Origin: Sulfurimonas sp.
Lineage (GTDB): Bacteria > Campylobacterota > Campylobacteria > Campylobacterales > Sulfurimonadaceae
NCBI GenBank assembly: GCA_016744115.1
Contig: JADGEZ010000001.1
Coordinates: 1 to 64,000, forward strand
Reading direction: 5' to 3'
Length of the DNA stretch: 64,000 nucleotides
The position numbers and the translations under genes were made by a program. Of this stretch, positions 14,545 to 60,903 are shown in pieces (position 1 is the first letter of the stretch; the number at the start of each line of letters is the position of its first letter). The notes beneath the pieces are model-generated. The model was not told the DNA's origin, did not search any database, and worked only from the letters and a program-made list of their open reading frames with translations.

Positions 14545-14570
14545 AACTAAAGGGGAAAATTCCTTTAGTT
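14545..14570 (+). terminator. hairpin after the LRV gene
   Basis: Perfect 9-bp stem aactaaagg...cctttagtt with 8-nt loop, just 3' of the LRV stop codon. Confidence 0.5.
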
Positions 14571-14837
14571 AAGTAATAGGGCATAAATAACTTCATAGCT
14601 AATGAAAAGATACACTGCAAGGTACAAGGCGAAAGTTCGCAGGAGCTACTAGTAGCTTTAAGAACTTTTAACGCAGTAGATTGTAGTGTATCTTTTCACC
14701 CTACGGGCATCATTTAAAAGGATTATCTTCTTCGTTGAACTTAACTTAACGATACTAGTATCGCCAAGTCAAATTCGCCTTGAATCTAAACCTTTTAAAT
14801 GATGTTAGCTATGAAGTTATTTATGCCCTATTACTTA
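14570..14837. repeat. 268-bp compound inverted-repeat element (two-arm, MITE/cruciform-like), copy 1
   Basis: Outer IR taagtaatagggcataaataacttcatagctaa (14570-14602) pairs with 14805-14837; inner arm 1 gaaaagatacactgcaa/ttgtagtgtatcttttc (14604-14620/14681-14697); inner arm 2 atcatttaaaagg/ccttttaaatgat (14709-14721/14791-14803); central palindromes agctactagtagct and cgatactagtatcg. Confidence 0.9.
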
Positions 14838-38681: not shown

Positions 38682-38770
38682 TTATATTTTCCTAGTTTGT
38701 TTTATATTAGACCTCTTTAAAGTGATCTACTAGTGCAATGTTAGCACAAAGAAACTAATTTACCTCTTTT

Positions 38771-38828
38771 GTCACCCTGAACTTTATTCAGGGTCTTGTG
38801 CTAGATTCTGAATTAAGTTCAGAATGAC
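38771..38828. repeat. short imperfect inverted-repeat element (GTCA...TGAC type), copy 2
   Basis: gtcaccctgaactttattcagggtct-tgtgct-agattctgaattaagttcagaatgac; halves are inverted near-copies and each contains its own 7-bp hairpin. Confidence 0.75.
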
Positions 38829-38853
38829 AGGCTATATCAAACAGTCGTGATAA

Positions 38854-57248: not shown

Positions 57249-58361
57249 TTACTTAATTACAAAAACTTCATTAGAAATTACAATAAATTTCTTAGCTTCT
57301 TCATTATTTTCTAAGTCAAACTTTTTTAATGCTTTTGGTTTTACTAAATGGTAGCCAAATTTTGCACTTACTTTATCCCCAGATTGCAACTTAAAGTCAT
57401 AGTTAAAATCTTTTTTAGTATTTGCAGGAATCCTTGTATCTTTGATAGTACGATCAGCTAACCAAGGTGGTGTTGGTTTTGGTGAAGCACCCTTAGCATT
57501 TCCAATGATTTTTAAAAGTTTTTTTGTGTCCATTTTAATGACTTTACCATTACGCTTGATACTCACAACTAATTTAGCCATTCTTAATGGGTGTAGAGTT
57601 GAGGAGTGCGTAGCTTGATGGTCAATACTCACTGTAAAATTCTTTTTCGTGTGATTGATGCTAAGTTTTACATATTTAGCTAGCATGGAAATATCTCCAT
57701 GAATCCCTGGAAAACCATGAAAAGCATGCTTTTTAGCCTTGCTAAGAATAGAAGGAGCACCATCGACTTGAGGCATGTGACATGTTAAGCAGTTATTATT
57801 TCCATCCATATTTGTATTTTCCGTTGAACAAACATCATACTCTTTTTTATTTGTTTTGTGCATGTGACAACCCATACATAGTTTTCCATTTTTGAAAACT
57901 TCTACATTTGTTTCAATAGCATGAAAAGGTGATTCTTGATTAGGTTTTAAGTTGGCAAAATATTTTCTCATATCAGGTGAGATAACATTCTTATTCATAA
58001 CTTTACCTGGTAAAGTATCTGTAATCCTATGACAATAAGCACAAGCGATAGCTTCATTTTGTGTTTCATTGTTTGGATCAGGAATTACACCATTGTTTTT
58101 TGTTAATAATTCTTTCATATTATCAGCTGTTGGCGTATGGCATTTTGCACAACGGTATTTTTGCATTTTATTTTTCATGGGATGCTTATCATACACAGCA
58201 CCATGAATTGGATCTGCAAATACAGTCGAATTTGCATGTTGTGAAGTTTTATACTCCTTGTAAATTTTCGGATGGCATTCACTACATTTTTGATTTTTCT
58301 CAAAGTGCATGGTAGCAAAACCTACTGTTGATAGCACTAGAACTATAAATAAACTTTTCAT
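57249..58361 (-). CDS. periplasmic multihaem (five CxxCH) cytochrome c, c554-like
   Basis: CSECH, CAKCH, CAYCH, CMGCH, CLTCH; signal peptide; ATG at 58361 preferred start. Confidence 0.9.
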   Translation of the reverse strand: MKSLFIVLVLSTVGFATMHFEKNQKCSECHPKIYKEYKTSQHANSTVFADPIHGAVYDKHPMKNKMQKYRCAKCHTPTADNMKELLTKNNGVIPDPNNETQNEAIACAYCHRITDTLPGKVMNKNVISPDMRKYFANLKPNQESPFHAIETNVEVFKNGKLCMGCHMHKTNKKEYDVCSTENTNMDGNNNCLTCHMPQVDGAPSILSKAKKHAFHGFPGIHGDISMLAKYVKLSINHTKKNFTVSIDHQATHSSTLHPLRMAKLVVSIKRNGKVIKMDTKKLLKIIGNAKGASPKPTPPWLADRTIKDTRIPANTKKDFNYDFKLQSGDKVSAKFGYHLVKPKALKKFDLENNEEAKKFIVISNEVFVIK

Positions 58362-58385
58362 CTCATCTCCCTTTTTCATTGTGAT

Positions 58386-58655
58386 TAGACTTCTTGCAAA
58401 ACTCCTATATGTCTCAGCACTTTATAGAGAGTTTTAATCAAGGCAAATATTCTCAAGCGTAGCCAAAGCTACGGTTTGGGTTATTTAACGCAGAGTAAAG
58501 CTCTCTATAAAGTGTCCTACGGAAGGGATAATAAGTGCCAACCTTGCATAAAAAAATATTTTACCCTTAGCTTAGGCTAGGCATAAAAATTTGTTTTACA
58601 CAATCTTAGCACTTCTTATCCCTCTGAGGCATATAGGAGTTTTGCAAGAAGTCTA
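58386..58655. repeat. 270-bp compound inverted-repeat element (two-arm, MITE/cruciform-like), copy 2
   Basis: Outer IR tagacttcttgcaaaactcctatatgtctcag vs inverted tagacttcttgcaaaactcctatatgcctcag (31/32); arm 1 cactttatagagag/ctctctataaagtg (58418-58431/58501-58514); arm 2 gggataataagtgc/gcacttcttatccc (58525-58538/58609-58622). Confidence 0.92.
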
Positions 58656-58723
58656 TTGCTATAATTTTATATAATTCGTATGAATTGCTAATTAATAGAG
58701 TGTTAATGATTTGTTAATTAAAA

Positions 58724-59941
58724 CTAAAGATTAGAAATTGTAAAATAATTATAAGTATTACTATGTTCATAAGAAAGACAAAGATTGTGTTTTTTCAAAA
58801 TTGTATCGACTATATAAAGTCCAAGTCCAAAACTCTCCGATGATTTATCCTCACTTTTTGTAAATGCTCTAAGATAATATTCTAAAGTTTTATCCATCTT
58901 CTCTCCTTTAGAGATAAAGTGTATTTTATTGTCTTTACATTCTATATAACAATCATTATTTTGTGAATATTTTAAGGCATTGTCGATTAAATTTTTAAAC
59001 ACAAAGGTAAAAAGTTCAAAATTTACTTTAAGCCTATTTTTTGAAAAATTATTTTTTATAGAATTAGGCTCTAAAAATAACATATCGGTAGCTTGATCGA
59101 GTATGTCGGTTAATGGATACTCTTTTGTTTGCAAAACATGATCCGTAGCTGTAATTTTTTCTATCTGAATAAACTCTTTAAGAAGAAGTTCTAATCTTGT
59201 AAATACATTATTTAAAACTTCTTTTGATTTAGAATCTTTAATCATCTCTAAGGCTATTTTTCCACTTGTAATAGGTGTCTTTAGCTCATGTGTAACATTA
59301 CTTAAAAAAATTCTGCGTGCATCTAATACATTATTTATTTTTTTGACTGCCTTATTAAACTCATTTGAAACCTCAGCAATTTCATCTTTGGAGCTTAAAA
59401 AAAAGTCTATATTTGTATCTCCCTCTCCAAAACGATGTATCCGCATCTGTAATTGTTTGAGTGGATATAAACTGATTCCAATGGAGACAAGCAAAAGTAA
59501 CATTATGAGAACAAACGCAGCATAAAGCCACCAAACATAATTAACATTTATCGACTCTGTTTTTATATCTTTTAACAAAAGTTTGCCTACGACAGGTGGA
59601 ACAAGAACATATCGAAATGAATTATGATTATAAAGATGAAAATCACCCTTTGCACAAGATACAGTATCAAATTTTCCAATACCTTGTATATCTTTATACA
59701 ATGTGGCATCATCGACTATAGCCATATGATCCTCTTCGAGTGCATTTATCAGTTCTTTATAGGTAGTATCCCCTATCTTCCATCTCATAACAGACATTGC
59801 TACATGGTGATAATGAATGCGAAGTTCCTCTTTTTCACTTTCAAACTGGTGGTCGTACATATATTTAAATAAGGCTGTAGTCGCTACAAGTGCAATGCTA
59901 AAAAAGACACAAATTCTTAGGATTATAGAGTGTTTATTCAC
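58724..59941 (-). CDS. two-component sensor histidine kinase
   Basis: Two TM, HAMP-like region, LSNVTHELKTPITSGKIALE, C-terminal ATPase (SFGLGLYIVDTILKKHN). Confidence 0.92.
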   Translation of the reverse strand: MNKHSIILRICVFFSIALVATTALFKYMYDHQFESEKEELRIHYHHVAMSVMRWKIGDTTYKELINALEEDHMAIVDDATLYKDIQGIGKFDTVSCAKGDFHLYNHNSFRYVLVPPVVGKLLLKDIKTESINVNYVWWLYAAFVLIMLLLLVSIGISLYPLKQLQMRIHRFGEGDTNIDFFLSSKDEIAEVSNEFNKAVKKINNVLDARRIFLSNVTHELKTPITSGKIALEMIKDSKSKEVLNNVFTRLELLLKEFIQIEKITATDHVLQTKEYPLTDILDQATDMLFLEPNSIKNNFSKNRLKVNFELFTFVFKNLIDNALKYSQNNDCYIECKDNKIHFISKGEKMDKTLEYYLRAFTKSEDKSSESFGLGLYIVDTILKKHNLCLSYEHSNTYNYFTISNL

Positions 59942-60626
59942 TTTGCATCATCCTATACCCAACACCACGAATAGACTCAAAATATGTTGGTTTTTTTGGA
60001 TTATCTCCAAGCTTAGTCCTTAATCTGCTTATAATTACATCTATACTTCTATCTCCACTACTCCAGTTCATTCCCTCAACACTATCTAGAATTTTTTCAC
60101 GAGAAAATACAATACCTCTGTTTAAGAGAAAAAGTTTTAGTACTCCAAACTCGGCTACTGTTAGGTCTAATGGTTGGTTTTTAAAATGAATTTTCATTGT
60201 TGTTTTATCACATTTGAATTCATGGTCTTCAAAAGATATTTCAGCTGAAATAGTAGTGTTCACTCGTCTAAGCTGTACTTGAATCCTAGCTATCAACTCA
60301 CGAGTATCAAAAGGTTTTGGCAAATAATCATCAGCACCTTTTTCTAATCCTAAAACCTTATCACTAACATTATTTCTAGCAGACATAATAATAATAGGTA
60401 ATGAATGCTCTTTACGGATAAGTTCACATAAGGATAGACCGTCCATTTTTGGTAGAGTGAGATCTAAAAGTATTATTTTATAAGTGCATTCTTTGAGACT
60501 ATTTAAAACTAGGAGAGGGTCATGTATGATTTTGACTGTATAGTTACTATTTATTAGATAACTCCCAAGCATATCAGATAAATCTAAATCATCTTCTACT
60601 ATCAAAATATCTATTTTATTTTTCAT
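59934..60626 (-). CDS. OmpR-family response regulator
   Basis: Receiver (ILIVEDDLDLSDMLG, LLDLTLPKMDG) and winged-helix effector domain; ATG at 60626 preferred start. Confidence 0.93.
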   Translation of the reverse strand: MKNKIDILIVEDDLDLSDMLGSYLINSNYTVKIIHDPLLVLNSLKECTYKIILLDLTLPKMDGLSLCELIRKEHSLPIIIMSARNNVSDKVLGLEKGADDYLPKPFDTRELIARIQVQLRRVNTTISAEISFEDHEFKCDKTTMKIHFKNQPLDLTVAEFGVLKLFLLNRGIVFSREKILDSVEGMNWSSGDRSIDVIISRLRTKLGDNPKKPTYFESIRGVGYRMMQSE

Positions 60627-60903
60627 TACAAACACTTCCATAATTAAGATAACTTTACTAATTTTTCTTATTTCATAAGCTAAGATACTCTTACTAGTCG
60701 TTTAAGTTCTAATGGTAACTAAACTTTTCAATATTAAAAGTTAAAATGTAACTTGCGTCACATATTATACTATCCCAAGATTATTAAACAATTTTTTTGA
60801 GATTGTTATTTCTAAAAAGATAAAATAACAGTAAGAAACAGCTATCGTGCTGAGTTCAATATTAAATTAGTAATAAAAGCAATTAAACAGGAAAGATAAT
60901 ACA

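Follow-up and report, generated by a model that had tools for sequence, protein, structure and literature searches.

Why does a palindromic element of some 270 bp hold its shape while its sequence changes, and what moves it? The question is raised by positions 58386-58655 of the window, that is, the whole stretch of 64,000 nucleotides from a Sulfurimonas draft genome (2.05 Mb, 74 contigs) that was analysed here. This element (copy 2) resembles another at 14570-14837 (copy 1), and the original prediction took it for the second copy of one compound element, whose structure was either selected as a DNA or RNA fold or recognised by a recombinase or transposase, with integron attC sites as an analogy.

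Anatomy of the two elements

Copy 2 measures 270 bp if one base of the target duplication is counted on each side, while the mobile unit without duplications spans 58387-58654 (268 bp). Its outer inverted repeat of 32 bp pairs 58386-58417 with 58624-58655 (31/32 complementary; features are given on the + strand), and folding the single-stranded DNA yields an outer stem that encloses a pair of long arms, with a small hairpin at CCTACGG. Arm 1 (58418-58514) is an imperfect 97-nt hairpin with a conserved internal loop formed by CAAGGC (58439-58444) and AACGCAG (58487-58493), and arm 2 (58524-58623) is an imperfect 100-nt hairpin. The linker described between them is a tiny hairpin in its own right, T-CC-TAC-GG-A (58515-58523; CC-NNN-GG). 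The fold is unusually stable in copy 2 (z -14.5) and in copy 1 (z -15.4), with 0/200 shuffles equally stable. Members of the copy-2 family carry the ends AGACTT...AAGTCT and a 3-bp duplication, which at this locus is ATT at 58384-58386 and 58655-58657 (no strand assigned). The first ~17 bases of the 5' outer strand, from 58387 (AGACTTCTTGCAAAAC), form a transposase-type terminal repeat common to the ends of an IS5-family IS, and the right terminal repeat lies within the 3' outer strand, reaching 58654. In Rfam searches at gathering score a tRNA was the sole match in the window, and 58300-58700 gave chance-level matches only.

Copy 1 is 268 bp long, with a 33/33 complementary outer repeat, arms at 14603-14698 and 14708-14804, a mini-hairpin at 14699-14707 (all on the + strand), and ends AGTAATAGGG with TA on either side. 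The predicted lengths, ~32-bp outer repeats and arm-linker-arm order are thus real, and the shared motifs CAAGGC(G)AA, TTAACGCAG and CCTACGG are present in both copies. The stems had been called completely different, which is true of the outer stems, where similarity is at chance level (z 0.6), but not of the arms, which are weakly similar: the best match lies between arm 2 of copy 1 and the reversed arm 1 of copy 2 (z 4.1), and this distant similarity runs through the core CAAGGC..TTAACGCAG. Rather than one element present twice, copies 1 and 2 represent two families (families 1 and 2) of one superfamily.

Copies, target duplications and empty sites

Besides ~10 full copies of the copy-2 family (94-97% identical), the genome holds many partial copies of it, of which several lie at contig ends; the copy-1 family has at least 14 full copies. 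An arm-pattern search matched 46 contigs, every one labelled Sulfurimonas or other Campylobacterota, and 72-83% versions of copy 2 occur in relatives of the same genus and in one genome from another family of the order. Matches to the arm module were also seen in S. indica, a relative that is in culture. The plasmids, phages and viral contigs that were searched gave no match to the element. Contig ends of the draft genome (C1, C16, C19, C25, C31, C34, C49, C53, C61, C64, C69, C73) often lie ~95 bases inside a family-2 copy, and the element therefore probably broke the assembly.

An identical A-N-T stands on either side of all nine own-genome family-2 copies that have both flanks, and an ANT duplication accompanies 18/24 of the elements with AGACTT ends overall. 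An empty counterpart site was found for one family-2 copy (L010), with 98% identity over 113 bp and a single ACT, and for two insertions of the TA type the corresponding site is empty in a related genome (L242/L204 and L203/L297). Copy 2 contains no gene, and its 268 bp are too short for a transposase. Judged by its sequence, copy 2 is a MITE: short, gene-free, bounded by terminal inverted repeats and a target duplication, and sharing its ends with an autonomous element. The duplications, the empty site and the ends in common with an IS point to past transposition and to a partner acting in trans.

Candidate partner transposases

Such a partner may be represented in a related genome (G108) by an 896-bp IS bounded by copy-2-type ends, with an ANT duplication. 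Its 17-bp perfect terminal repeat carries AGACTTCTTGCANAAC, as in copy 2, so that the shared end amounts to 16-17 bp. The transposase is encoded in two overlapping frames with the domains HTH_Tnp_4 and DDE_Tnp_4, and the IS5-family profile NF033581 matches both halves with 58.8 and 109.5 bits, each half staying below the 140-bit cut-off set for the whole protein. A second IS of this type is found in genome G075. The shared ends and the transposase profile suggest an IS5-family transposase as the partner of copy 2; the genome of copy 2 itself contains no intact IS5-type partner, only transposase fragments. For the TA-type ends of copy 1 the partner is probably IS630, as suggested by a single case (G018:C48) in which a 3' IS630 transposase remnant precedes a TAAGTGCC end; no intact element was seen.

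Several other candidates were rejected. The IS630 fragment in the own genome lacks the matching ends expected of a copy-1 partner, as do the transposase fragments adjoining a family-1 copy on contig C71, and an IS1595 element beside a TAAGTGCC end in genome G014 has different ends of its own, the match being a separate 30-bp palindrome. The search for a partner of GGGCAC ends returned only single ends and pairs spaced 172-305 bp, with no IS-sized pair. Two genomes from other families of the order carry 102-bp armless elements (L131 and L132, 1501-1602) with AGACTTCTTGCAAAAC ends and an ACT duplication.

One cloverleaf with many ends

All fetched loci together yielded 99 candidates, of which 95 were kept after removal of four clear chance repeats. 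The sample was collected with queries for the copy-2 element and its core, and therefore gives no measure of the frequency of other repeats. An outer stem with three branches is the fold of 87/95 candidates, and the 83 full elements meeting the arm-length limits were used for the dimensions of the fold. Mean lengths in this set were 31.6 nt for the outer strand, 97.7 nt (sd 2.8) for arm 1, 8.5 nt for the mini-hairpin region and 97.9 nt (sd 2.1) for arm 2. The common fold thus consists of an outer stem of ~32 bp, two hairpins of ~98 nt and a CCNNNGG mini-hairpin; it is found with more than 10 end sequences, and across end types the arm lengths are constant to ~3 nt.

The end types AGTGCC, AGTAAGA, AGTAATA, AGTACC and others are flanked by TA in 37/45 cases, part of which may reflect extension of the inverted repeat. 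Elements with GGGCAC ends show a 4-bp duplication in 4/7 cases, and TTGAACC, ATACCAA and further end types show no clear duplication. The arms are mixed as well, the delta arm being accompanied by gamma in AGACTT elements and by alpha where the ends are GGGCAC or TTGAACC. Stem sequences and jumping ends have been replaced many times, while a cloverleaf of fixed size stays. The group in Sulfurimonas and its relatives is large and apparently undescribed before, as a literature search of open-access papers found none that describes repeats of this kind in Sulfurimonas.

A few relatives depart from this plan. A mosaic (L011, G000:C43:73535-73738) combines family-2 arms with family-1 outer sequence (TAAGTAATAGGGCATAAATAACT) and may show an exchange of ends directly. 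A 233-bp relative of family 1 (L046, 1501-1733) has both arms but no CCNNNGG mini-hairpin. In three relatives (L104, L106 and L119, ~1501-1555) tRNA genes flank a single arm-like hairpin that has the CAAGGC/AACGCAG core but no outer repeats.

Covariation

That structure is kept while sequence changes, as had been predicted, holds more strongly than two copies could reveal. Strands pair with their own partners at 0.84, 0.96 and 0.90 (outer stem, arm 1, arm 2), and swapping the 3' strands between end types, whose 5' strands are only 0.37-0.40 identical in this comparison, lowers the values to 0.49, 0.50 and 0.48. The elements were chosen for their outer repeat and folded singly, and high own-strand pairing is therefore partly due to construction. 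In an independent test, 14 ANT-type elements were compared with 500 shuffles. Of their cells 97.0% pair, 42/104 pairs show two-sided change against 21.6 (sd 2.5) after shuffling, and the covariation score is 0.302 against 0.117, with 0/500 shuffles reaching any of these measures. Sliding the pairing partners abolishes the covariation.

What keeps the fold

The fold might be kept if a transposase or recombinase recognised it, as in attC or REP elements, and its long-term conservation would fit this part of the original prediction. Several lines of evidence make this very improbable. A derivative of 154 bp, with its right end within the arm-2 region, is present at least six times, and five of these copies have matching ANT; the derivative lacks arm 2 and a closed outer stem, has only a short right repeat, and has spread nonetheless. 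The armless 102-bp elements combine the same ends and duplications in other genera. Because the derivative spread and the armless elements exist, the cloverleaf is not required for movement. Furthermore, the elements are bounded by terminal inverted repeats of the ordinary kind, common to a DDE-transposase IS, and have ANT duplications or TA flanks; neither IS200/IS605-type transposition nor integron recombination is known to produce conventional duplications. The attC analogy also fails in detail, since the + strand of copy 2 has one RYYYAAC and no GTTRRRY, and hence no paired sites.

The age of the changes is informative. Recent copies in the own genome have 56 broken versus 22 compatible changes and lose pairs as neutral DNA does, whereas 125 broken versus 366 compatible changes were counted between species, in rows that are related by descent; single rows agree with the latter result (L061, 21:3, p 4e-7; L069, 29:12, p 1e-5). 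Dispersed copies therefore decay, while lineages do not. An element acting as a transcribed RNA, be it a processing site, an attenuator or a small RNA, would account for the very stable RNA fold, the covariation and the conserved internal loop motif, and MITE transcripts can affect mRNA (PMC2229807). This reading is nevertheless unlikely. RNA selection through G-U steps predicts more transitions than were seen: transitions make up 29/71 of the two-sided and 20/51 of the one-sided changes, so that compensatory changes follow the spectrum of ordinary mutation. This counts against selection on the RNA and points to a cause in the DNA. The decay of recent copies also speaks against an RNA role, as do insertions that fall alike into divergent (14), tandem (15) and convergent (7) gaps. 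Of the selected fold proposed originally, the RNA version is thus disfavoured and a cause at the DNA level favoured.

Such a cause could be arm-to-arm template switching alone, keeping the palindromes matched around a fold without any role, and the spectrum of two-sided substitutions is what this would produce. As a complete account it is doubtful. The mismatched internal loop of arm 1 is the most conserved region (0.97 versus 0.70-0.83 in the surrounding helices), which cannot result from correction alone because correction alone would erase the loop, and the constant arm lengths across end types are likewise not expected. Two-sided corrections in recent copies occupy only three cells, two events by inspection, and template switching would therefore have to be slow or bursty; in a rough steady-state estimate, arm correction at no less than ~10 times the mutation rate was only marginally compatible with so few corrected pairs.

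It is highly probable that copy 2 is a MITE that depends for its movement on an IS5-family transposase acting in trans, that several transposases serve the cloverleaf of its superfamily, and that the cloverleaf persists by DNA-level causes. A transposase of the HTH_Tnp_4 and DDE_Tnp_4 type would recognise the 16-17-bp ends and make the 3-bp ANT duplication. The cloverleaf of fixed dimensions would carry different terminal repeats in different families, so several transposases would serve it: an IS5-type one (ANT), probably IS630 (TA), and another that makes 4-bp duplications. Unnecessary for movement, the cloverleaf would persist through what I infer to be a mix of two causes: template switching may copy a mutation from one strand of the palindrome onto the other, and lineages whose helices and unpaired loop motifs are intact may amplify better or be better tolerated. 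More tentatively, and with the balance somewhat against it, the superfamily might be a DNA cassette of fixed geometry and conserved loop motifs that is passed between transposase families, refitted with new ends and recombined arms, and kept by selection for some function unrelated to how it jumps.

Relation to known repeats

Bacterial MITEs are usually viewed as the debris of one IS. More than 10 kinds of ends and at least two (probably three) kinds of duplication on one fixed fold with heavy covariation imply that here the interior outlives its transposases. Imperfect hairpins, conserved unpaired features and variable stems are shared with attC and REP-RAYT elements, which are recognised as folded strands and leave no target duplication; the Sulfurimonas elements differ in having terminal repeats and duplications, and fold-less derivatives that spread.

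Most small bacterial repeats form one stem-loop joining their ends (PMC2229807). RUP of Streptococcus pneumoniae is likewise a small intergenic MITE with TA at its ends and a tight fold pairing them, and an IS630 element whose ends resemble its own has been proposed to move it in trans, but RUP is 107 bp long with a single end type, and has neither a two-arm cloverleaf nor differing ends around one fold (PMC2229807, PMC3049150). The CIR repeats of Caulobacter are predicted to have two long arms and a linker, without an outer stem joining the ends (PMC2229807); the Sulfurimonas group has both, and its ends are transposase repeats. BOX repeats of S. pneumoniae are also modular, and a resident IS has been proposed to recognise their ends, but they range from 67 to 637 bp with a variable number of modules (PMC3049150), unlike the fixed length and varying ends seen here. 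The Sulfurimonas group, a MITE variant, is marked by the combination of joining stem, two arms and linker with changing ends. Neutral decay of dispersed copies, together with truncated copies that move, allows a test in nature of what maintains long palindromic repeats in bacteria, whether arm-to-arm repair or selection acting on the structure of the DNA or the RNA. The elements probably also break genome assemblies.

Genomic setting

Copy 2 is flanked by two minus-strand loci, a multihaem cytochrome gene (57249-58379) and a two-component system (58724-60641). Read from the sequence, the likely start codon of the cytochrome gene is at 58361 with AAAGGGAG ahead of it, and the end of the element is ~25 bp upstream, adjoining the ribosome-binding site (58361-58386); copy 2 may affect expression of this gene. 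A terminator role was rejected, given the insertions in all three gap types and one weak terminator-like stem only. The window contains another short repeat at 38767-38851 (TTGTCACCCTGAACTT..ATTCAGGGTCT..GAATGACAGGCT), which is also found at several other sites in the genome, and other copies of this repeat host a family-1 insertion (L044) and a family-2 derivative (L017).
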